64,000 bases of DNA from Arcobacter sp. LA11 (GTDB lineage: Bacteria; Campylobacterota; Campylobacteria; Campylobacterales; Arcobacteraceae), in assembly GCF_001895145.1 (NCBI RefSeq), contig NZ_BDIR01000004.1, positions 62,001 through 126,000 of the forward strand. Direction: 5' to 3'. Below, piece after piece: positions 41,760-59,303 of this stretch. The position numbers and the translations under genes were made by a program. The notes under the pieces are model-generated. The model saw only the letters and a list, made by a program, of their open reading frames with translations. It had not been told where the DNA came from and did not search any database. Numbering within the stretch: the first letter of the stretch is position 1; every line of letters begins with the position of its first letter.

Positions 41760-42419
41760 TTAGTTAGGACGTTCTACCATGTAACCAATTCCTCTAATAT
41801 TGATAATAAAATCTTCTTTTAAAACTTTTTTGACACGATTTACTTCAGCTCTTATTGTTGCATTATCAATTTCATCTCCATCATAGGCATATTCTCTAAA
41901 CATATCATAGTTTACAACCAAGCTTCTATTTTGAGATAGGAGGGCAATAATTAGAAGTTGTCTTTTGGGTAAAATATGTGGTTCATTATTAAAATATAAA
42001 GTTGTAGTTTCATGGTCAAAACTATAAGATTTTGAGAGCCTTTTATGTTCCTGTGGAACGACTCTTGTTTTTAGTATTTTATTTATTCTAAGATTTAACT
42101 CTTTTAAGTGAAATGGTTTTTTTAGATAATCATGGCAACCTATGTCAAAGGCTCTTGAAATTTCTTCAATATCAATAAGTGCCGAGATAAAAATAGTTGG
42201 AACCATTCTTTTTTGTTCATGAAGTTTTTCTAAAATAGTTAAACCATCAATATCAGGTAAGTTTATATCTAAAATTAACATATCAAATTTTTGTTCTTCT
42301 AATGTATTTAAGCAAGTTTCACCATCTTTTGTAGAAACTATTGCATGTCCTACAGATTCAAGATATTGGGTGATTGCATCATTTAACATTGAATCATCTT
42401 CTAATAAGAGTATTTTCAT
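41760..42419 (-). CDS. OmpR-family response regulator (partner of FIST kinase)
   Basis: The 219-residue regulator has a receiver domain with acidic pocket EDD (7-9), phospho-acceptor Asp51 (LILDINLPDIDG) and Lys in YLKKPFH. A C-terminal winged-helix domain (about 125-217, ending RGIGYMVERPN) follows. Its ATG overlaps the kinase stop (ATGA), so the two proteins are made together. OmpR-type proteins bind direct repeats of 10-11 bases, and four 11-base repeats lie in the divergent promoter 2 kb away. It probably controls the aldehyde dehydrogenase. Confidence 0.9.
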   Translation of the reverse strand: MKILLLEDDSMLNDAITQYLESVGHAIVSTKDGETCLNTLEEQKFDMLILDINLPDIDGLTILEKLHEQKRMVPTIFISALIDIEEISRAFDIGCHDYLKKPFHLKELNLRINKILKTRVVPQEHKRLSKSYSFDHETTTLYFNNEPHILPKRQLLIIALLSQNRSLVVNYDMFREYAYDGDEIDNATIRAEVNRVKKVLKEDFIINIRGIGYMVERPN

Positions 42420-44326
42420 TGTTCATTCCTTTTAAAAGTATAAGTAAAAGTTGTAAATTCTTCATTTGATTTTAATTCAATTTTTACATCTTCTTCATCG
42501 CATATTTTTTTTACTAGATTAAGTCCTAATCCAAAACCATCATGAGTTTTTTGCTCTCTATAGTATTCTTCAAATATTTTTTCTGGTTCTTGAATTACAC
42601 TTGAATGACTTGAAACTAAAAATTTATAAGAGTTGTCATATTCAAATAAAGAGATAAAAATATCTTCATTTTCTAAAGTATATCTAATAGCATTTGTTAG
42701 ATTATTATCAACTATTCTTTGTAATTTTGTTTCATTAAAGTATATAGTTTTTTCTGTTTTTGTAGTTTCAAATAAAATTTTAGAATTTACTTTTAGTGCA
42801 ACTTGTGTAAAAAAATCAATTCTACTTCTTATATAGTCTACTAATTCTATTTTTTGTTTTCTATACTCTATTTGATCTTTTTTTACCAAGAAACTCAAAT
42901 CATCATATATTGCAAAAACATTTTTCATAGCAACTTCAATATTAGATAGATATTTGTTTTTACCAAACTCCATTTCATATAACTCTATATTCCCCATAAT
43001 AACAGAAAGAGGAGTATTTGTTTCATGTACTGCGTGACGTAAAAATTGTTTTTGAGAGGCTAATAGATTATTTGAATAGCTCTTTTCTATATTTAATTTT
43101 TTTGTTTGTTCATCATAATCTTTTGAAGATTGTTGAATAAGATGGGTTAGTGCTTGAATGGTTCTTGCGTATTCAGATGTTTCATTTATATTATCAATAT
43201 TTTTAACAGTAGTAGTTTCTTTATTATTTGAACTATTTTCACTTAATGCAACAACTGTTAGAGTTTGATTTAATAGTTGATTTGCACCATTGTTATGATA
43301 AAACTCTGCATAGGTGAAAAACCCTGATGTTGGAGCAATTGACGCAAAAGGTTCAACTTCTACTTTTATGAAATCTGGCATATATCTACGTCTTGCCATA
43401 CAAGAGTATAAAAAGAATGTTTCTGGTTTTCCCGATGAAAGTTTAGGAAGAGTTTCTATTGGGTTTTGCATTATCATTTCTGCATTTCCAAATCCTAATT
43501 TTACTATATCCCCTTCTTGTAAGTTTCCTGCAAAACTTAGACTTCCATCATTATGTTTTGCGATTACTGCACGGGCTGTTAAAATAGAATCTCTTTCAAC
43601 TATAAGTGGAAATTCGATACCTGTTGCAGGAAGCGCATCAGCAACATCTTCTCCTAAGTATTTTGCATAAAAATCTACTGGAGTCATACCATGAATACTA
43701 TAAACTCTATTGTTTTCAATTTTATCAATCTTATGTTCTATTCCAATTGGAGACCAGTTAAATCTATAATCATTGTGAATTAGTAAAATATCTGAATTTA
43801 AAGAGACTCCCACCGCACCTTTTTTTAACACTTTATTTTGACATGATATATAAGTTTGTGTAAATGCGCCATTATCTCCTGCCATTCCCCCACAAATAAC
43901 AACATCTTTGTTAAAAGATTGAACGCCTTTTAAAAAGTTTTCACCGTTGGTTGTTGTTCCATCTGTAAAAAGAATAAGAAGTTTCGTGTTTTGTGTTACT
44001 AAATCTTTTGCAAGGCTGAAACCATTTTGAAATGATTCCTCATATTCAGAATAAGAGGTCTTTATTTGTGTATTTTCAAAAGTAGAAATAGAGATTATAG
44101 TATTAGATGTTGAAATATTTTTATCTTGAATTTCTCCATCGGTTGTAGTACCTATACAAATAGAATTTGGTAAATAGTTTAAAATTTTATCAACTAGATT
44201 TTTTAGAGTTATATTGCCCTGTCCACAAAATATTTGAATTAGAGTATTTTTTTGATTTTTGAACTCTTCAAAATTTATAATATCTTCTATTTTTCTATTT
44301 TTTAAACTGTAGTTATATGTTTTCAT
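42416..44326 (-). CDS. FIST-domain sensor histidine kinase
   Basis: The 636-residue cytoplasmic kinase starts with FIST_N (about 25-225; LILFTDGTTTNGENFL, CGGMAGDNG) and FIST_C (about 230-345, with LYSCMARRRYMP and APTSGFFTYAEF). These are sensory domains thought to bind small molecules such as amino acids. A coiled coil (385-425) leads to the dimerisation helix with His434 in HAVHETNTPLS and an ATPase domain (LQRIVDNNLTNAIRY, HDGFGLGLNLVKKI). No membrane segment is seen, so the ligand is cytoplasmic. It is divergent from the aldehyde dehydrogenase. Confidence 0.9.
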   Translation of the reverse strand: MKTYNYSLKNRKIEDIINFEEFKNQKNTLIQIFCGQGNITLKNLVDKILNYLPNSICIGTTTDGEIQDKNISTSNTIISISTFENTQIKTSYSEYEESFQNGFSLAKDLVTQNTKLLILFTDGTTTNGENFLKGVQSFNKDVVICGGMAGDNGAFTQTYISCQNKVLKKGAVGVSLNSDILLIHNDYRFNWSPIGIEHKIDKIENNRVYSIHGMTPVDFYAKYLGEDVADALPATGIEFPLIVERDSILTARAVIAKHNDGSLSFAGNLQEGDIVKLGFGNAEMIMQNPIETLPKLSSGKPETFFLYSCMARRRYMPDFIKVEVEPFASIAPTSGFFTYAEFYHNNGANQLLNQTLTVVALSENSSNNKETTTVKNIDNINETSEYARTIQALTHLIQQSSKDYDEQTKKLNIEKSYSNNLLASQKQFLRHAVHETNTPLSVIMGNIELYEMEFGKNKYLSNIEVAMKNVFAIYDDLSFLVKKDQIEYRKQKIELVDYIRSRIDFFTQVALKVNSKILFETTKTEKTIYFNETKLQRIVDNNLTNAIRYTLENEDIFISLFEYDNSYKFLVSSHSSVIQEPEKIFEEYYREQKTHDGFGLGLNLVKKICDEEDVKIELKSNEEFTTFTYTFKRNEQ

Positions 44327-47548: not shown

Positions 47549-47649
47549 CAGATAAGTTTATCTAAAAAAAGGTTAGTCTATTCCTCTATAGAATTTTCAT
47601 AAAAACAGAATATTTCTTTGTTAAAACAATGATATATGTAACTTTGACA

Positions 47650-47692
47650 TTTTTTTGCTCTTTTTTTACTCTTTTTTTACTTCTTTTTATCC
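47650..47692 (+). promoter_or_regulatory. three tandem 11-bp direct repeats upstream of the tor-like regulator
   Basis: TTTTTTTGCTC (47650), TTTTTTTACTC (47661) and TTTTTTTACTT (47672) are contiguous; a degenerate copy follows. They end 17 bases before a -10 TATAAT (47699-47704), so bound regulator could contact polymerase. Confidence 0.65.
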
Positions 47693-47698
47693 ATAATA

Positions 47699-47704
47699 TA
47701 TAAT
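47699..47704 (+). promoter_or_regulatory. -10 box of the tor-like regulator operon
   Basis: TATAAT lies 32 bases upstream of the regulator ATG, just after the tandem repeats. Confidence 0.5.
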
Positions 47705-47735: not shown

Positions 47736-48413
47736 ATGGCAAGAAGTAAACTTAAAGATTTTAAAGTTCTTTTCGTTGAAGATGAAGAAAAAATTCGACA
47801 ACATATTGCAAATTCTCTTAGTTATTTAGTAGAAGAAGTTAAAGAGGCTTCTAATGGGGTGGAAGCATTAGATGTATTAGAAAGTTTTACTCCAGATATA
47901 ATAATCACTGATTTAGAAATGCCCCTTATGAATGGTGTTGACTTTATAAAACATGTAAGAGAAGAAGATAAAGATGTTTGTATTATTGTCCTTACAGCAC
48001 ATACAAATAATCAGTATTTATTAGAATTAATTGATATGCATATTGAGCATTTTATTGTAAAACCAATGAATTTTGAAAAGCTTTTAACTATACTTCAAAA
48101 ATGTGAAAAGTCAGTTCTTGAACAAAAAAGTGTAAAACATGTATTGCCTTTAGACTACTCTTATGATGAAGATAAAAAAAGTCTATCATACAAAAATGAT
48201 GAAATAAGATTGACAAGAAAAGAGATTTTATTTCTTGAACTTCTATTTAAAAATTCATTTAGAATTGTTTCGTATGATGAAATAGATAGTTATGTATGGG
48301 AAGATTCTGTTATGACAGAGAGTTCTATAAGATCATTAGTTAAAAATCTAAGAAAAAAACTACCTGTAAATTTAATAGAAAATCTTTCGGGAGTTGGTTA
48401 CAAACTTGTTTAG
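47736..48413 (+). CDS. OmpR-family response regulator (Tor-like)
   Basis: The 225-residue protein has receiver acidic residues EDEE (15-18), phospho-acceptor Asp59 (IIITDLEMPLMNG) and Lys in FIVKPMNF. The winged-helix domain (about 130-225) ends SGVGYKLV. An AAAGGAG site precedes the ATG. It is first in an operon with a binding protein and a histidine kinase, just before a cytochrome and TMAO-type reductase. By position it corresponds to TorR. The 3' end overlaps the next gene. Confidence 0.92.
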   Translation: MARSKLKDFKVLFVEDEEKIRQHIANSLSYLVEEVKEASNGVEALDVLESFTPDIIITDLEMPLMNGVDFIKHVREEDKDVCIIVLTAHTNNQYLLELIDMHIEHFIVKPMNFEKLLTILQKCEKSVLEQKSVKHVLPLDYSYDEDKKSLSYKNDEIRLTRKEILFLELLFKNSFRIVSYDEIDSYVWEDSVMTESSIRSLVKNLRKKLPVNLIENLSGVGYKLV

Positions 48414-50058
48414 ATGTTTTTTTTTAATTCTTTTTATAACAACATTTTTATTATCAAATGACGTAAAATATAAACCAATAAAATATAAACTTGATGATGC
48501 AAGTAAAATAGCTTTAAATAAAAAAATCTCTAATTCTCATATAAAAATATATTTACCTTCTATTCCATATTCTCATATTATGCGTTTGATTAATGGTACT
48601 TTAGTAAGATTAAATGACTCTTCAAAAGGTTGGGAATATTTTATAGCTTTTAAACATGAAAAGATAGATTCTCTTACTTATGATTTTTGGTTAAGAAAAG
48701 ATGTGAAATTTCAAGATGGTACAGTATTGAATGCAGACTCTGTAATTGAAAATTTCAAAATTTTTAAAAAAGGTGCTTTTACTTATACAGATATTCATAA
48801 TAAGTTAAAAAGTGTAGAGAAAATAAATGACTATAAAGTAAGAATTTATTTAAACAAACCATATGGAATGCTTTTAAATGACCTTGCTAGAATAAATCTT
48901 TATACTTCTGAATACTTAAAAAAATACTCTTGGTCAAAAAATATAGTTGCAGAAAATACAAAAGCACCAGGTCCTTATGGAAGTGGTCCTTATATACTAA
49001 CTTCTGGACATGCAGTTGGACTTAAACAGAGTGAAAAAATAGTTTTAAAAGCTAATCCTTTTTATTTTGAAAAAGAGAAACCCTTTATAAAAACTATTAC
49101 AATTTTTACAAAACTACCAATAGATAAAGTAATACATGAAATAAGTGAAAAAGAGGGAGAGCTTGATATAGCTGTTATTCCTTTTAATAAAAAAACGGAG
49201 ATAGTAAATTCAAAATTTGCAAAACTAGTTAGTACGAAATCAACTTTTAATTTAAGTATTCATATGAATTTAATGAATAAAAAATCAAAACTTCAAAATC
49301 AAAAAATAAGACAAGCACTAAATCAAGCTTTAAATCAACAAAAACTTGTAAAGTTTGCATATAAAAATGAAGGTACGATATCTCCTTTTTCAATCTCTTC
49401 AAATTCTCACTATGTAAAAAAATTATCAAATGAGTATATAAAAAATCCAAGACTCTTTTTTAACGAAGATGAGCTTACTAAGTTACTTGATGGATTGACT
49501 TTAAAGGTTGTTACACAAGATAGATTTATTTCTTTATGGAAAGGTATAGAGTATCAGTTAAACAAGTACAATGTGAAATTGGATTATGACGTTACAACTG
49601 ATGAATCATATGTCTTAAATAAACTATTGACAAATAGAGATAAAATTTATGATTGGGATTTAATTATTTGGGGAAATAATGATTGGTATGGTCACCCTTG
49701 GGCATCATTTTTTACTCTTTATACAAAAAATCAATGGTCCGCAGTAAACTCTGATGAGGTATTAGATAATAAATTTAGAGAACTCTTTGAGATAGAAAAT
49801 AGTGATTATAGATTTCAACCTTTAGTAAATGATATCTTGAAATATACTTATGAAAAAGCTTATATGCTGAGTATCCCTTCTCCAAATTTTTTATTAGCAA
49901 TGAACAAAGAGATTTCATTTACTCCCTCTTCTGTAGCAATTTTAAGATTATGGGAAGCAAAACTGACACCATACCACTGGTCTATAAGGGAAGAGAAAGA
50001 ACTTCCAAAATCAAGAAAAGAATTTATATTACCTAAAAGGATAAATCATGATGAGTAG
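48406..50058 (+). CDS. periplasmic SBP_bac_5 binding protein, probable sensor partner
   Basis: The protein of about 550 residues has an N-terminal signal (FFLILFITTFLLS). The SBP_bac_5 fold shows FWLRKDVKFQDGTVLNADSVIENFKIF, GPYGSGPYILTSG, IRQALNQALNQQKLVKFAY and DLIIWGNNDWYGHPWASFF. This family normally binds peptides or nickel for ABC transport, but no permease or ATPase is present. It lies between a response regulator and a histidine kinase, so it more likely presents a ligand to the kinase. I chose TTG 48406, twelve bases after GGGAG; TTG 48394 is the alternative. Confidence 0.85.
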   Translation: MFRCFFLILFITTFLLSNDVKYKPIKYKLDDASKIALNKKISNSHIKIYLPSIPYSHIMRLINGTLVRLNDSSKGWEYFIAFKHEKIDSLTYDFWLRKDVKFQDGTVLNADSVIENFKIFKKGAFTYTDIHNKLKSVEKINDYKVRIYLNKPYGMLLNDLARINLYTSEYLKKYSWSKNIVAENTKAPGPYGSGPYILTSGHAVGLKQSEKIVLKANPFYFEKEKPFIKTITIFTKLPIDKVIHEISEKEGELDIAVIPFNKKTEIVNSKFAKLVSTKSTFNLSIHMNLMNKKSKLQNQKIRQALNQALNQQKLVKFAYKNEGTISPFSISSNSHYVKKLSNEYIKNPRLFFNEDELTKLLDGLTLKVVTQDRFISLWKGIEYQLNKYNVKLDYDVTTDESYVLNKLLTNRDKIYDWDLIIWGNNDWYGHPWASFFTLYTKNQWSAVNSDEVLDNKFRELFEIENSDYRFQPLVNDILKYTYEKAYMLSIPSPNFLLAMNKEISFTPSSVAILRLWEAKLTPYHWSIREEKELPKSRKEFILPKRINHDE

Positions 50059-51706
50059 TATTAAAATACGATTAAAATTTTTTATATTAGGTATGTTAGC
50101 TTTTTTATCACTTTTATTTTTAGGATTATTGGCCTTTAATATAAATAATCAAGGTTTTGTAAATTTAAGTCAAGTATTTACAGATTTTAAGAAAGTACAA
50201 AAACTACAGTCAGATTATATTGAACCTTTATTTACTTTAAGAGAAAGAAACTTAACTCTTGTAATGTCTCCAAATGAGGATTTTAAAAAAGAGGCAGATA
50301 AAAGATTAATAGAAGAGTTAGAAAAACTTGATAAAACTTTTAATGATGCACCAAAAGAGATTTATAAAAAATGGGAAAACTATAGAGTTCTTCTTTTTAC
50401 AACCAGAGTATATTCTCTAGAAGGCTTTGATGAAGGCTCTTTTATGAATGCGACATCTTCTGAAAGAGAGCAGTTTTATGATTTGATAAGTGATTTAAAA
50501 CAATTACAAACGCAAAAACTAGAGGACTCAGAGAATACTTTTATTGAAGCAAAAGACAATACTTTAAAAAGTAAATATTATATTATTTTAGGATTTTTAT
50601 TTGTAGGAATCACTACATTTTTATTTGATATGACTGTAATAAGAAAGATTGTTGATTCTATAGAAAAGGTTCAAACCGGACTTTTTGGTTTTTTTACATA
50701 TCTTTCAAATCCTAAAAAAGAAGAAACTGAAGCATATATAAAATTAGATAGTAAAGATGAATTAGGACTTATGGCCAAAGGAATTAATAGCCAAGTAAAA
50801 TTAATCAAATCTGCACTTAAAAATGATTATAAACTAATTGAAGAAGCAACAAATACTTTACATGAATTAAAAGAAGGAAGATTTGGTAAAAGGCTTACTT
50901 CAGATGCAAGTTCAGAAGAGCTGAATACCTTAAAAAATGTAATGAATGAAATGATAGACAATCTTGAAAATAAGATTCAAGAAGAGATTACAAATAGAAG
51001 TAATCAAGAAAAGCTTTTAGTACAACAATCAAAGCTTGCTGCTATGGGTAATATGTTAGGAAATATTGCACATCAGTGGAGACAACCAATTAGTGAAATA
51101 AACGCAATACTTATGGAAGTAGAAGCCATAGCTAGATTTGATACTTTAAAGACTGATTTTCTTTTAAAAAGTATATCGAGTTGTTCGGATGTTACAGAGC
51201 ATATGTCTTCAACTATTAGTGATTTTCAAAATTTCTTTCAACCTTCAAAAGAGAAAGAGTATTTTAATGTACATGAAGTATGTTTAAGTGCAATTTCTAT
51301 TATAAATGCTTCCTTGAAATTTCATAATATTGAACTAAAATTTAATATAAATGAAAATTGTGAAGTTTACGGTTATCCAAGAGAATTTGCCCATGCAATT
51401 TTAAATATACTTTCAAATTCAAAAGATGTATTAGTAGAAAGAAAAATAGAAAATCCTAAAATTATTCTTAGTATTAAAACTGGAAAACAATTTACAATTA
51501 TTAGAATTGAAGATAATGCCGGTGGAATAAAAGAAGAAAATATTGATAAAATTTTTGAACCATATTTCACAACAAAACATGCCACACAAGGTACTGGTAT
51601 TGGATTATATATGACAAAGATGATTATTGAGAATAATATGAATGGTTTTGTAAACGTAGAAAATAGCCAAGAAGGGGCACTTTTTACTATCAAACTTCAG
51701 AAATAA
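50048..51706 (+). CDS. membrane histidine kinase (Tor-like)
   Basis: The 552-residue kinase has two membrane helices (about 9-30 and 177-198) around a helical periplasmic domain (about 31-176), of the four-helix-bundle type. HAMP-like and coiled-coil segments lead to His342 in GNIAHQWRQPISEI and an ATPase domain (ILNILSNSKDVL, DNAGGIKEENIDKIFEPYF, GTGIGLYMTKMI). The first ATG overlaps the binding protein's 3' end and has an AAGGATAAATC leader. A TorS-like kinase usually carries extra receiver and Hpt domains; these are absent. Confidence 0.9.
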   Translation: MMSSIKIRLKFFILGMLAFLSLLFLGLLAFNINNQGFVNLSQVFTDFKKVQKLQSDYIEPLFTLRERNLTLVMSPNEDFKKEADKRLIEELEKLDKTFNDAPKEIYKKWENYRVLLFTTRVYSLEGFDEGSFMNATSSEREQFYDLISDLKQLQTQKLEDSENTFIEAKDNTLKSKYYIILGFLFVGITTFLFDMTVIRKIVDSIEKVQTGLFGFFTYLSNPKKEETEAYIKLDSKDELGLMAKGINSQVKLIKSALKNDYKLIEEATNTLHELKEGRFGKRLTSDASSEELNTLKNVMNEMIDNLENKIQEEITNRSNQEKLLVQQSKLAAMGNMLGNIAHQWRQPISEINAILMEVEAIARFDTLKTDFLLKSISSCSDVTEHMSSTISDFQNFFQPSKEKEYFNVHEVCLSAISIINASLKFHNIELKFNINENCEVYGYPREFAHAILNILSNSKDVLVERKIENPKIILSIKTGKQFTIIRIEDNAGGIKEENIDKIFEPYFTTKHATQGTGIGLYMTKMIIENNMNGFVNVENSQEGALFTIKLQK

Positions 51707-51727
51707 AGAATAAAATTTAAAACTTCA

Positions 51728-51760
51728 TTTTTTTACCACTATTTCACTCTTTTAACGCTT
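51728..51760 (+). promoter_or_regulatory. tandem 11-bp direct repeats upstream of the cytochrome/reductase operon
   Basis: TTTTTTTACCA (51728), CTATTTCACTC (51739) and TTTTAACGCTT (51750) repeat with an 11-base period. They follow the pattern of the 47650 array (T-run then [AG]C[TC]). A -10 TATAAT is at 51772-51777. Confidence 0.55.
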
Positions 51761-51771
51761 AGTTCCTTTTT

Positions 51772-51777
51772 TATAAT
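51772..51777 (+). promoter_or_regulatory. -10 box of the cytochrome/reductase operon
   Basis: TATAAT follows 11 bases after the last repeat and lies 31 bases upstream of the cytochrome ATG. Confidence 0.5.
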
Positions 51778-51807
51778 TTAAATATAAAAAATAAAAAAGG
51801 ATTTATC

Positions 51808-52386
51808 ATGAAGAAAAGATATCTATTTCTTAGCTTGTTTTTACTTGCCTCTTTTGTGCAAGCAAAAACTCAATATGTAACAAAAACTTTGCCTACTTAT
51901 TCAACTACTGAAGATGCAAAAGCTAGTGGGAAAATACTTCCTACGACACCTTTAGAAGTTATAAAAACACAAGATGGAAAAGCATTTGTTAAGTTAACTG
52001 GTTGGAATAAAGGAAAAATGACACGAATCCTTTATTTTTCAAAAGGTGAAAGAATTATTTCAGCAGCATTTTCTAAAAAAGCGAAATATGAAGTAAAAGT
52101 ATTAAAAACAGAAGAAGTTGGAACTAAAAAAGATCAATGGAGTAATGTAACTATAACTACATGGATAGATAATAAAGAACTGACAGATGATTTAAATGCT
52201 TTATATTCAAAAGCTGCAAATTTATATGAAAAAAATTGTGGTCTTTGTCATGCAAAACATCCAACAAAAGAATTTTCAGCAAATCAATGGCCAGCAGTTA
52301 TTAAAGGGATGATTCCTAGAACACCTTTAAGTAAAGAAGAAGGGTTATTAGTAACTCAATATGCTCAAAAGCATGCAAAAAAATAA
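51808..52386 (+). CDS. periplasmic monoheme cytochrome c, reductase partner
   Basis: The 192-residue protein has a Sec signal peptide (cut near residue 19, SFVQA). An SH3-like beta domain follows (about 25-100). One haem motif, CGLCH, is at 144-148, with a likely axial Met in IKGMIPRTPLS. It lies 22 bases before the molybdoenzyme gene and resembles the C. jejuni cytochrome next to its TMAO/DMSO reductase (from memory). It would pass electrons from the menaquinone pool to the reductase. It is not the pentahaem TorC of E. coli. Confidence 0.88.
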   Translation: MKKRYLFLSLFLLASFVQAKTQYVTKTLPTYSTTEDAKASGKILPTTPLEVIKTQDGKAFVKLTGWNKGKMTRILYFSKGERIISAAFSKKAKYEVKVLKTEEVGTKKDQWSNVTITTWIDNKELTDDLNALYSKAANLYEKNCGLCHAKHPTKEFSANQWPAVIKGMIPRTPLSKEEGLLVTQYAQKHAKK

Positions 52387-52408
52387 AAAATAAAAGAAGG
52401 AGAAAATT

Positions 52409-54910
52409 ATGAGAACTTTAAATAGAAGAACTTTTTTACAAGGTACAGCTGCATTAGCTTTAATGCCTGCTGTTTCAGCTTGTGCTAAAAATGTTGAAGC
52501 AATGAATAAAATCGGAGCAATGGGAGGCAAAGGTAAATTTGTACAAAATGGCTCAGTAAATACTGCTGCACACTGGGGAGGATTAAAAGTTACTGTTGAA
52601 GATGGAAAAGTTGTAAATAGTACAAATGTATTAAAAAACTTTCAATATAATTCTTTACAATCAACAGTAGAAGATTTAGTATATGCTGAAGATAGAATTA
52701 AATATCCAATGGTTAGAAAGTCTTATTTAAAAGATCCAGATAATTCAAAACCTGAATTAAGAGGTAGTGAAGAGTGGGTTAGAGTTTCTTGGGAAGAGGG
52801 ACTTAAATTAGCTGCTGATCAAATGAAAAAAACAAGAGAAACAAAAGGTTCTAGTGGAATCTTCTCTGGATGTTATGGATGGAAAAGTTCAGGTAACTTC
52901 CATAATGCTAGAACTTTAGCATATAGATTTATGAGAACTACTGGTGGATTTGTTGGTCATAAAGGTGATTATTCTACAGGAGCATCTCAAGTTATTATGC
53001 CACATGTTATGGGTAGTATTGAAGTATATGAACAACAAACTTCTTGGGAAGTTGTATTAGAAAGTACTGATGTTGTTGTAGTTTGGGGTGCAAATCCAAT
53101 GGCAACGCTTAAAATTGCTTGGAGTAGTTCTGATTCAGAAGGTTTAGAGTACTTTAAAAAGTTAAGAGACAGTGGTAAAAAAATTATTTGTATTGATCCA
53201 GTTTATAGTGAAACTTGTCAATTCTTAAATCCAACAAAATGGGTAACTCCAAAACCAAATACTGATGTTGCAATGATGATTGGTATGTGTCATACTTTAT
53301 ATACTAAGAAAAAACACAACCAAGATTTCTTAGATGAGTATACTGAAGGTTTTGATAAATTTAGAGATTACTTTATGGGTAAAGCTGATGGAGTAGTAAG
53401 AGATTCTAAATGGGCTGCAAAAATTTCTGGTGTTGATGCAAAAACTATTGATGAATTAGCTTTATTATTTGCAGCAAATAGAACTATGCTAATGAGTGGT
53501 TGGGCTCTTCAAAGACAACATTTAGGTGAACAAAGACACTGGGCTCTTGTTTCTTTAGCTTCTATGATTGGTCAAATTGGACTTCCAGGTGGTGGTTTTG
53601 GTTTATCTTATCATTATGCAAACGGTGGAGCACCAACTGCAACTGGTGGGAAAATTGGTGGTATTAGTTCAAAATCTAACTGGGGTATGAAAACAAAAAC
53701 AGCTGGTGGTTTAGGACATAGTTATAATGCAAAAGATACAAATATTGCAATTCCTGTTGCAAGAATTTCTGATATGTTATTAAATCCTGGAAAAACTATT
53801 GATTATAATGGTACAAGAATTACATATCCAGAAATTGAAACAATTTATTGGGCAGGGGGAAATCCTTTCCATCACCAACAAGATACAAATAAACTTATTA
53901 AAGGTTGGAAAACAGTTAAAAATGTATTTGTAAATGAAATTTATTGGACTGCAACTGCAAGAATGGCAGATATTGTATTCCCTGTTACAACAACATTTGA
54001 GAGAAATGATATTACGATGGCGGGTGATTATTCAAATAAATATATTTACCCTATGAAACAAGTTATTCCTACTCAACATGAAGCTCAAAGTGATTACTGG
54101 ATTTTTACAGAATTAGCTAAACACTTTGGAAAAGAAAAAGAGTTTACTGAAGAAAAAACAGAAATGGAATGGGTATCAGAGTTTTATGAAATTGCACGAT
54201 CAGGAGCTGCTAAAAAAGGTGTTAAAATGCCAATGTTTAGAAAGTTCTGGGCAGATAATAAACCATTTGAATTCAAAGTATCAGAAGCTTCAAAAAAATG
54301 GGTTAGACACGCAGATTATAGAGAAGATCCATTATTAAATCCTCTTGGAACACCATCTGGAAGAATTGAGCTTTATTCTCAAAAGATTGCAGATATGAAA
54401 TATGATGATTGTAAAGGACATGTAACTTGGATGGAACCTATTGAAAGATATGGTATGAAAAATCAACCAGCACCATTAGCGTTAGTAAGTCCACATCCAT
54501 CTGAAAGACTTCACTCTCAACAAAATAATACTTCACTAAGACATAATTATGAAGTACAAGGAAGAGAACCTATTTGGATTAGTATTGAAGATGCTAAAGC
54601 AAGAGGTATTAATGATGGTGATTTAGTTAGAGTATTTAATAAAAGAGGTCAAACTTTAGCTGGTGCTGTTGTTACTAAAAATATCTCTAAAGGTGTAGTA
54701 AGAATGCAAGAAGGTGGTTGGTATGATCCACTAGAACCAGGTAAAGAAGGTACTTTATGTAAACATGGAAATGTAAATACATTAACAGTAGATATTCCTA
54801 CTTCAAAATTAGCAAGTGGTAATAGTGCTCACACTGCACTTGTAGATGTAGAGAAATACAAAGGAAAAGTTCCAAATATTTCTTTATTTAAACAGCCTAA
54901 AATGGCTTAA
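52409..54910 (+). CDS. torA: TMAO/DMSO-type reductase (TorA/BisC family)
   Basis: The 833-residue enzyme has a Tat signal (LNRRTFLQG at 5-13, then a hydrophobic run), so it is folded with its cofactor and exported to the periplasm. HNARTLAYRFMRTTGGFVGHKGDYSTGASQ contains Ser189, the Mo ligand of the DMSO/TMAO reductase family. There is no iron-sulfur motif at the start. It reduces TMAO, DMSO or similar N- and S-oxides in anaerobic respiration. An AAGAAGGAG site precedes the ATG. No TorD-like chaperone gene is next to it. Confidence 0.92.
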   Translation: MRTLNRRTFLQGTAALALMPAVSACAKNVEAMNKIGAMGGKGKFVQNGSVNTAAHWGGLKVTVEDGKVVNSTNVLKNFQYNSLQSTVEDLVYAEDRIKYPMVRKSYLKDPDNSKPELRGSEEWVRVSWEEGLKLAADQMKKTRETKGSSGIFSGCYGWKSSGNFHNARTLAYRFMRTTGGFVGHKGDYSTGASQVIMPHVMGSIEVYEQQTSWEVVLESTDVVVVWGANPMATLKIAWSSSDSEGLEYFKKLRDSGKKIICIDPVYSETCQFLNPTKWVTPKPNTDVAMMIGMCHTLYTKKKHNQDFLDEYTEGFDKFRDYFMGKADGVVRDSKWAAKISGVDAKTIDELALLFAANRTMLMSGWALQRQHLGEQRHWALVSLASMIGQIGLPGGGFGLSYHYANGGAPTATGGKIGGISSKSNWGMKTKTAGGLGHSYNAKDTNIAIPVARISDMLLNPGKTIDYNGTRITYPEIETIYWAGGNPFHHQQDTNKLIKGWKTVKNVFVNEIYWTATARMADIVFPVTTTFERNDITMAGDYSNKYIYPMKQVIPTQHEAQSDYWIFTELAKHFGKEKEFTEEKTEMEWVSEFYEIARSGAAKKGVKMPMFRKFWADNKPFEFKVSEASKKWVRHADYREDPLLNPLGTPSGRIELYSQKIADMKYDDCKGHVTWMEPIERYGMKNQPAPLALVSPHPSERLHSQQNNTSLRHNYEVQGREPIWISIEDAKARGINDGDLVRVFNKRGQTLAGAVVTKNISKGVVRMQEGGWYDPLEPGKEGTLCKHGNVNTLTVDIPTSKLASGNSAHTALVDVEKYKGKVPNISLFKQPKMA

Positions 54911-57332: not shown

Positions 57333-59303
57333 CTAATTCAAAGGGAGTTTTATAGTAAATAAAGCTCCTTTATATTTTTTTTCTTGATAAGTAAACTCTA
57401 TATTCTCAACTTTTATTTTACCTTTTAAACTTGATTCAATTATATTTTTAGTCATATAAAGACCTATTCCTGTCCCTTGTGACTTAAATTTAGTTGTGAA
57501 GTATGGTTCGTATATTCTATGTATGATTTCTTTTTTTATTCCACCAGCGTTGTCATAGATTTTAATTTCTAAAGAATCATCTTTTTTCAGAGTTTTTACA
57601 AAAATATATTTTTCTTCTTTTGTCTCTAATAAGGCATCTTTAGCATTATTTAATACATTTAAAATCACTTGAATAAGTTCATTTTCGTAAGAGTTTAATT
57701 TTATACTTTTAATATCAAGTATTAATTCTATATTTTTATTTTTAATATTTGCAAAAATTAGATTGAGTACTTGTTGTATTGTATTATCTATAGTGAATGT
57801 GTTTTTAATTTTATCTTGTGAATAGAAGTTTCTAAAATCATCAATTGTGTTTGAAAGAGTTAAAGTACTTTTTACTATACCTTCTAAATCTTTATCTAGT
57901 TGTTGGTCATTTACTTCTATACCCATCTCTTTTTGAATACGAATTCCACTTGCTATTGTACTAATAGCTGATAAGGGTTGTCTCCATTGGTGGGCAATAT
58001 TACCTAACATCTCCCCCATGGCAGCTAATTTAGATTGTTGATTTAGAATTATATCTTTTTCTCTTACTGTAGATACTTGCTCTTTTACTTGTTTTTCTAA
58101 TTCATTATTTAAATTTTTTAGTTTTAAATTATTATCTTCAAGTTTTTGAGAGTAAAATTGAAAAAGATTTTTTATTCTTTTTGATAAAAGTATTAAAAGT
58201 ACAATGATAAAAAAAGTTACTATAGAAGAGACAAACATTATTGTTTTAATATCTTTTTCAAGAACTAATTCTAGTTGTAAGTATTTTTTCTCAATTTGCT
58301 TATCTAAATCATTTGTATATAAACCTGTACCAATAATCCAATCTAATATAGGAATACGTTTTACATAAGAAATTTTTCTAGATTGTGAAAAATCTTTAAA
58401 AAGTGCTTCTGATTGAAGGTATTCTAAAAAATCTCCATTGGAACCTTTGGCTTTATTTATGATTTCTAATACATTTTTTTGAATACTCTCATTTAGTTTA
58501 GAAAGGGGTACATTTACTATAGATTCATTCTTGTGAACTAAAGCTTTCCCTTGCGTATCCATAATAAATATATAACTCTTATCATCATAAGTAAGGGATT
58601 TTACAAAGTTTTTTGTAGTATTTGCAATTTTCTCTTTGATATCTTCTATATATATTGCTGAACCTATAAATATGTTTAAAGGCTCAAATTTTTTTAAATA
58701 TCCAATTTTTTTTATTTTTTTATCACTATTTGGTTTATTCCAATACCATTGAGTAAATCCTTCACCATCTTTTTCTAGTGTTTTTTTAAAGTTTTTAAAT
58801 AAAACATTACCATTCTTATCTAAAAGATCACTAATATCTTTTCCTACTAAATGAGGATTTGCAGGAAGTGATATTGTTATACCTGTTTTTAAATTTTGAA
58901 TAAAAAAGTATCCAGTATCATTATCAAAAAATCTTAATTCTCTCATCTTTTCATCTATAATTTTATATAGCTTTTCTTCTGAAAGGTTTTTATTATTTTT
59001 ATAAATATTTTTTAATAGGGTATAACCTATATTTACGACGTCTTTTACTGTTTCTTTGGACTCTATTAACTGATTCTGATAGTTGTTATTTAATAAAATT
59101 GAAACGTATTCTATTCTCTCTTTAATAGTCTCTTTTAAGTTTATGATATGTTCTTTTCTAAGATTTTTAATCTCTTCTTCATGAGCTTTATGTTTTGAGG
59201 AAATAAATATATTTGTTAGTATAAATGAAGTTAAAATTACCCCAATAATTGGGAGTAATATAATCCATTTAATAATTTTTGTTTCATTTACCATTTTTTT
59301 CAT
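57333..59303 (-). CDS. Cache-domain membrane histidine kinase, no adjacent regulator
   Basis: The 656-residue kinase has two membrane helices (about 11-32 and 352-375) around a large periplasmic region with two Cache-type modules. The repeated pattern is NDTGYFFIQNLKTGITISLPANPHLVGKDISD and later YIFIMDTQGKALVHKNESI. A coiled coil leads to His438 in GNIAHQWRQPLSAI and an ATPase domain with GTGIGLYMTKNII. It senses a small periplasmic ligand. No response regulator lies beside it. It starts 67 bases after the TolC-like stop on the same strand. Confidence 0.9.
   Translation of the reverse strand: MKKMVNETKIIKWIILLPIIGVILTSFILTNIFISSKHKAHEEEIKNLRKEHIINLKETIKERIEYVSILLNNNYQNQLIESKETVKDVVNIGYTLLKNIYKNNKNLSEEKLYKIIDEKMRELRFFDNDTGYFFIQNLKTGITISLPANPHLVGKDISDLLDKNGNVLFKNFKKTLEKDGEGFTQWYWNKPNSDKKIKKIGYLKKFEPLNIFIGSAIYIEDIKEKIANTTKNFVKSLTYDDKSYIFIMDTQGKALVHKNESIVNVPLSKLNESIQKNVLEIINKAKGSNGDFLEYLQSEALFKDFSQSRKISYVKRIPILDWIIGTGLYTNDLDKQIEKKYLQLELVLEKDIKTIMFVSSIVTFFIIVLLILLSKRIKNLFQFYSQKLEDNNLKLKNLNNELEKQVKEQVSTVREKDIILNQQSKLAAMGEMLGNIAHQWRQPLSAISTIASGIRIQKEMGIEVNDQQLDKDLEGIVKSTLTLSNTIDDFRNFYSQDKIKNTFTIDNTIQQVLNLIFANIKNKNIELILDIKSIKLNSYENELIQVILNVLNNAKDALLETKEEKYIFVKTLKKDDSLEIKIYDNAGGIKKEIIHRIYEPYFTTKFKSQGTGIGLYMTKNIIESSLKGKIKVENIEFTYQEKKYKGALFTIKLPLN

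Follow-up and report, generated by a model that had tools for sequence, protein, structure and literature searches.

What does a binding protein of the peptide/nickel type do when its gene lies between those of a response regulator and a histidine kinase, directly ahead of a respiratory reductase? Such a locus occurs in Arcobacter sp. LA11, within the 64,000-nucleotide stretch of its 3.1 Mb genome that was analyzed here (the window; C4:62001-126000). We conclude that the genes for the response regulator (RR), the periplasmic SBP_bac_5 binding protein (SBP) and the histidine kinase (HK) form a repeated cassette, and that they probably constitute a two-component system that is gated by the SBP, dedicated to the adjoining reductase and acts through tandem 11-bp repeats. 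In such a system the SBP, of family 5, would bind a small molecule connected with the reductase, either its substrate or an accompanying compound. In the periplasm it would then dock on the helical domain of the HK, altering kinase activity. After phosphotransfer, the OmpR-type RR would bind the repeats, a short distance ahead of the -10 box, and would switch on the cytochrome-reductase transcript as well as its own operon; sister cassettes would likewise target the sister reductase and, in addition, an outer-membrane porin.

All five genes of the window locus are on the forward (+) strand. The first (47736-48413) encodes a 225-residue RR of the OmpR/PhoB type, with matches to Pfam Response_reg (92.7 bits) and Trans_reg_C (50.1 bits). 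The SBP gene, called at 48394-50058 (554 aa), specifies a cluster C protein with a signal peptide and no lipobox, which belongs to SBP_bac_5 both by profile (PF00496, its sole Pfam match, 128.4 bits against a cut-off of 32.4) and by fold: its AlphaFold2 model (mean pLDDT 89.5, pTM 0.87) retrieved NikA/AppA/AapF-type SBPs in Foldseek at an E value of 1e-34. Its true start is likely the TTG at 48406; the resulting 8-nt overlap with the RR gene is found in both paralogs in this genome and is the commonest in the family; the RR/SBP and SBP/HK overlaps are conserved across cassettes. The HK gene (50048-51706; 552 aa) encodes a simple membrane kinase in which a first transmembrane segment (TM1), a periplasmic domain at about residues 33-178, TM2, a HAMP-like domain, a DHp domain (HQWRQP, with a weak HisKA match) and HATPase_c follow one another; a profile search of its 552 residues found no receiver or Hpt domain. 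After a gap of 101 bp comes a mono-heme c-type cytochrome gene (51808-52386; 192 aa, one CXXCH), whose product resembles the C-terminal domain of TorC (TIGR02162, 136.7 bits, aligning only with positions 205-380 of the 387-position model) and is predicted to donate electrons to the reductase. The last gene (52409-54910; 833 aa) encodes a bis-molybdopterin guanine dinucleotide S-/N-oxide reductase exported by the twin-arginine (Tat) pathway, with the Tat motif RRTFL and a bisC_fam score (TIGR00509) of 1108.6 bits, above the curated cut-off of 1017.55. No gene for an ATP-binding cassette (ABC) permease or ATPase adjoins the RR-SBP-HK trio. Coordinates, profile matches and gene neighborhood thus agree with an initial annotation of this DNA, which had described overlapping regulatory genes ahead of a cytochrome and a Tat-exported reductase, a simple kinase and an SBP of the peptide/nickel type that is unaccompanied by transporter genes.

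The trio recurs far beyond chance. The same genome has four SBP_bac_5 genes; three lie between RR and HK genes, and the other encodes a conventional SBP (L006, 292 bits). In one sister cassette (L005) the order is reductase-cytochrome-RR-SBP-HK, with a second bisC_fam enzyme, and in the other (L007) RR-SBP-HK is divergent from genes for a TorD-like chaperone, a DmsA/Phs-like enzyme and an Fe-S subunit. RR, SBP and HK of these two are each 41-48% identical to their window counterparts, the window RR being 48% identical to both paralogs. The genome has about 11 clear molybdopterin oxidoreductase genes, and none of the three cassettes is more than four genes away from one of them, a placement that random positioning would produce with a chance of about 1e-4 by our arithmetic. 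The RR-SBP-HK order was found in about 80 loci. A profile built from the three paralogs defines a clade of SBPs scoring at least 266 bits, with every other SBP_bac_5 protein at 98 bits or less. Searching with it located clade SBPs in 32 of 104 Arcobacteraceae genomes, where the initial annotation had suggested looking for conservation of the gene set, and in 33 of 397 genomes sampled across the class; a few also occur in metagenome-assembled genomes (MAGs) of Gammaproteobacteria and Verrucomicrobiota.

Among 87 distinct cassettes, the HK gene comes next in 83, an RR gene precedes in 82 and a molybdoenzyme gene lies within six genes in 75, mostly three or four genes from the SBP gene. The 12 cassettes with no molybdoenzyme nearby are those whose contigs end (L013, L099, L104, L139), divergent outliers (L025, L027, L029, L030, L103), both SBPs of L012, and L128. 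ABC genes are found inside none of the 87, and an ABC ATPase gene within ten genes in 7. A reductase tree distinguishes at least seven kinds of enzyme next to cassettes: type A, the window kind, which is also found in Sulfurospirillum; type B, that of L005; type C, that of L007; type D, from Sulfurospirillum; and types E, F and G, the last being DmsA-like (52%) and accompanied by NrfD-like and TorD-like genes.

The members of the trio have evolved together. When reductase type is mapped on the SBP tree, 17 changes are needed, against 51.7 with shuffled labels, and the window SBP groups with type-A SBPs from other families, apart from the paralogs in its own genome. Pairwise distances correlate most strongly between SBP and HK (r = 0.95), followed by SBP and RR (0.91), HK and RR (0.90), and SBP and reductase (0.76). 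Because the correlations within the trio exceed that with the reductase, the sequences indicate that the trio is inherited as a unit, to which the enzyme is joined as an exchangeable part.

The periplasmic domain of the HK is all-helical in its AlphaFold2 model, and 6 of 20 relatives match 4HB_MCP_1. From the model itself and these matches we assign the domain, provisionally, a 4HB-like fold; Foldseek with the whole HK model (pTM 0.40) returned kinase cores only. A profile of this sensor domain gave 46 matches in the 104 Arcobacteraceae genomes, all of them beside a clade SBP except those in L165-L168 and one weak match. The pairing extends to other outputs. In a gammaproteobacterial MAG (L025, 1352-4712), the gene after that of a clade SBP encodes a methyl-accepting chemotaxis protein whose periplasmic domain is of a similar kind, which suggests chemotaxis toward the same class of ligand, and in L027, L029, L030 and L103 clade SBPs are followed by hybrid kinases, again with a similar periplasmic domain. 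A constant SBP-sensor pair with varying output is what direct docking would lead us to expect, and is consistent with it rather than proof of it.

Cassette-linked upstream regions carry two to four tandem 11-bp direct repeats of the form T-N-C-N-N-TTTTTT, an arrangement that would suit an OmpR-type dimer bound along a single DNA face. In the window, four such repeats (TGACATTTTTT TGCTCTTTTTT TACTCTTTTTT TACTTCTTTTT; 47645-47688, + strand) stop 10 bp before a TATAAT at 47699-47704 in the RR promoter, and are predicted to be the RR-binding, autoregulatory site of the RR-SBP-HK transcript. A weaker array of three (TTCATTTTTTT ACCACTATTTC ACTCTTTTAAC; 51724-51756, + strand) lies in the gap between the HK and cytochrome genes, stops 15 bp before a TATAAT at 51772-51777 and is the putative promoter/operator of the cytochrome-reductase transcript; the repeat is found in this gap in other type-A loci too. 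A strict form of the pattern has four exact matches in the 3.1-Mb genome. Three are in cassette promoters, namely in both directions of a porin/TorA2 divergent region and in the window RR promoter (47657-47677; C4:109657-109677), and one is inside a coding frame. Allowing one mismatch brings the total to 14 matches, against 5 for a backwards control pattern.

Type B cassettes have the repeats in 23 of 24 promoters, ending 34-45 bp before the called start. We trained a half-site matrix on type B only, scored it at 11-bp spacing, and compared the other types with 309 control promoters not touching cassette genes. The type-C TorD promoters reached a median of 27.7, 9 of 14 exceeding all 309 controls (p 5e-7), the type-A cytochrome promoters a median of 13.3 (Mann-Whitney p 5e-9) and the type-A RR promoters a p of 0.05, with strong sites in the window and Sulfurospirillum and none in several Arcobacteraceae; these p values count related loci as independent and so overstate the evidence, leaving the agreement between types unaffected. 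In type C, the site precedes TorD instead of the RR gene, in whose promoters the type-B matrix found none. The 11-bp spacing outscored spacings of 7-10 and 12-16 in all types except D. Our first control set included porin-like genes of the module, and the comparison was redone without promoters touching module genes; of the six controls with the highest scores, four were porin-like genes lying by type-C cassettes, and the repeat is also present at the porin-like genes that adjoin type B. These genes, L005:2636-3814 and similar ones by type B and C cassettes, encode a porin-like outer-membrane protein, are divergent from or near the reductase gene and have the repeat in their promoter. The gene at L005:2636-3814 matches nothing in Pfam, and we call it a "porin" from our reading of its sequence; by its promoter, the porin-like gene seems to belong to the regulon.

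Which compound would such a system report? The initial annotation had called the enzyme a TMAO/DMSO-type reductase (trimethylamine N-oxide, dimethyl sulfoxide). Its assignment to the S-/N-oxide reductases stands; within them, sequence comparison places it closer to TorZ, BisC and MtsZ, and to enzymes of the methionine-sulfoxide/biotin-sulfoxide type, than to TorA. It is 50% identical to E. coli TorZ, 49% to BisC and 43% to TorA, and scores 863 bits against the TorA equivalog TIGR02164, whose cut-off is 1465. Its best match in the PDB is 7l5i (1059 bits), with DMSO reductases at 852-885 and TorA at 721/677 bits. We take 7l5i to be H. influenzae MtsZ; the PDB record reads trimethylamine-N-oxide reductase. 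That an S- or N-oxide is the ligand is our leading guess. Methionine sulfoxide, free or peptide-borne, is attractive in this role, given that the enzyme resembles MtsZ and BisC and that peptides are bound by many SBP_bac_5 proteins. The MtsZ, DorA and BisA enzymes of the bisC-type group also act on methionine sulfoxide (PMC5122715, PMC7402097, PMC10653797). An attempt to predict the ligand from the aspartate with which DppA and OppA hold the peptide amine was dropped, the alignment being too weak at less than 20% identity; at the position so aligned, type A has N or E, Arcobacteraceae B and C mostly D, and type D other residues.

Several observations weigh against an SBP-gated, reductase-dedicated system. 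Three type-A loci of Arcobacteraceae (L165:935-6511, L166:4199-9723 and L167:4088-9637) keep the RR-HK-cytochrome-reductase order with the SBP gene cleanly absent, and genomes G079 and G082, which have such an SBP-less locus, contain no other clade SBP. Because these loci have lost the SBP only, dependence on it is not universal; the SBP would seem not always to be essential, and the kinase able to persist without it. Adjacency of SBP and kinase genes proves nothing by itself, because the SBPs encoded beside the P. aeruginosa kinases AgtS and AruS gave no activation when tested (PMC11113362). Some pairings of SBP and reductase have been swapped: L127 joins a B-lineage SBP to a type-A enzyme, L133 a type-B enzyme to another SBP lineage, and type C enzymes gained cassettes twice, from different SBP lineages. 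As to the repeats, the site at the window cytochrome promoter is weak, its score of 7.7 being surpassed by about 10% of controls; type-D promoters are essentially unrecognized by the type-B matrix, and the 11-bp repeats that they do have were noted by visual inspection only; and the T-tracts are AT-rich sequence within AT-rich genomes.

The SBP-less loci are what would be expected if the kinase did the sensing itself (of a ligand, of redox state or of the state of the membrane) and the SBP were a dispensable accessory modulator, and the all-helical sensor domains of NarX and NarQ do bind ligands directly (PMC8534201). We nevertheless think this unlikely, since the SBP is kept in nearly all cassettes and co-evolves most tightly of all with the kinase, and the losses are few, confined to one enzyme type and perhaps accompanied by rewiring. 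A tentative alternative, possible although we doubt it, retains the SBP-gated circuit and makes the ligand a cue other than the substrate (a peptide, a metal chelate or something else) that predicts a use for the reductase. Structurally characterized SBP_bac_5 proteins have peptides, nickel chelates, glutathione and sugars as ligands; the L005 and L007 SBPs are 67% identical, their enzymes just 27%; and the ancestral-looking members L025, L027, L030 and L103 are associated with a chemoreceptor or hybrid kinases and have no molybdoenzyme nearby. Against this, SBP clades track reductase type across bacterial families, which is easiest to understand if the SBP reads a signal tied to the enzyme. 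As this alternative shares its mechanism with the reading that we prefer, the two are not exclusive, and our confidences do not sum to one.

Two further possibilities do away with the circuit or with its local target. The initial annotation had named, as an outcome that would overturn it, an SBP serving an ABC transporter encoded elsewhere; the gene would then be co-transcribed with the regulators by accident. The genome does hold an OppB-type permease gene with no Opp genes adjoining it (L159:5306-6265) and other binding-protein-dependent permeases; searches of the genome with BPD_transp_1 and OppC_N found the OppB-like permease apart from the cassettes, and OppC_N matches below the cut-off only. 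We found no support for the idea and consider it barely credible: ABC genes are missing from every cassette and ATPase genes rarely near one, the conventional SBP of L006 is the natural partner for the lone permease, and three diverged SBPs, each tied to its own kinase, suit a shared transporter poorly. It is also very improbable that the system controls distant genes and lies beside the reductase by accident. Many regulators are unlinked to their targets, but the great majority of cassettes adjoin molybdoenzymes, and the repeats precede reductase, chaperone and porin-like genes.

Other arrangements were met near or among the cassettes. In the Sulfurospirillaceae loci L014/L142 and L145, two tandem clade SBPs accompany one kinase, possibly providing two ligands for one sensor. 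TorA-like reductases in L155, L156, L157 and L015/L100 are linked to a different HK-RR pair with no binding protein, and some of these sets immediately follow an SBP cassette. A lone kinase with a cassette-type sensor domain (L168:7321-9009) lies near a TorA2-like gene, adjoins neither SBP nor RR and resembles a decayed cassette. In the window itself, a two-component set at 57333-59303 has a dCache kinase with the phospho-acceptor motif HQWRQP, as in the cassette HK. In another set, at 41760-44326, an OmpR-type regulator is encoded beside a formate-dehydrogenase-like gene and next to a kinase whose N-terminal sensory region is of a different kind.

How does the proposed SBP-gated system relate to known ones? 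With the TMAO-responsive TorT-TorS-TorR system of E. coli it shares a periplasmic binding protein, a membrane kinase whose periplasmic domain is all-helical, and an OmpR-type regulator, encoded beside cytochrome and S/N-oxide reductase genes. However, TorT is of another family than SBP_bac_5; TorS is a hybrid phosphorelay kinase (HK-receiver-Hpt), whereas the window kinase is simple; and TorC is penta-heme and membrane-anchored, whereas the window cytochrome is mono-heme. Unlike the Tor genes, RR, SBP and HK form a single overlapping operon, and several paralogous cassettes occur per genome. The TorS sensor domain is also all-helical (PMC8534201), a resemblance by analogy only: hhalign gave a probability of 0.1% over 4 columns, with a single-sequence template, so that remote homology is still possible. 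The system is thus TorT/TorS/TorR-like in logic and not a member of that family. The initial annotation had placed an SBP_bac_5 protein "in place of TorT". The binding protein is indeed of another family, but the phrase understates the difference, which extends to the architecture of the kinase, its sensor domain, the cytochrome and the subtype of the enzyme; its broader proposal, a sensor of separate evolutionary origin dedicated to a respiratory reductase, is supported by the conservation, co-evolution and shared operator-like repeats.

By gene adjacency and co-evolution, the system appears to belong to a loose functional class of SBP-gated sensor kinases. About ten SBP-activated kinases have been characterized, and SBP-activated receptors draw on 13 SBP families (PMC9602780). 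In BctC-BctE, XylFII-LytS and LuxP-LuxQ, as predicted here, an SBP encoded beside its receptor reads the signal; the present cassettes differ in their respiratory-reductase output, their family 5 SBP, the lack of a transporter and the swaps between enzymes. The clade shares its fold with the transport proteins NikA, DppA, AppA and AapF, from which it is set apart by identities of about 14-20%, the lack of cognate ABC genes and its own motifs (N-terminal SHIKVFLPSIPY, C-terminal HWSxR). In Campylobacterota, C. jejuni Cj0264/Cj0265 and C. concisus BisA/BisB pair a TorA/BisC-family enzyme with a mono-heme cytochrome, as in the window, but the passages on them in PMC10653797 describe no kinase or binding protein. 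In open-licence PMC papers we found no description of an SBP_bac_5-kinase cassette for molybdoenzymes, and its novelty is provisional.

Evolution appears here to have built Tor-type logic from unrelated parts and re-used it as an exchangeable module. Taken more widely, the data may describe a plug-in family of respiratory sensors, a proposal for which we see the chances as evenly balanced: the pair of SBP and 4HB sensor would have been copied and directed to new targets, giving each molybdenum reductase and its porin a sensor and an operator variant of their own, and would also have been fitted to hybrid kinases and one chemoreceptor. The cassettes are candidate modular small-molecule sensors, and the SBP-less loci offer a natural experiment on the kinase's need for a binding protein. 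The substrates of DMSO-reductase-family enzymes in Campylobacterota are mostly guesses, and the ligand of an SBP should reveal the substrate or cue of its reductase; if the plug-in family is real, each SBP would report the true substrate of the reductase next to it.

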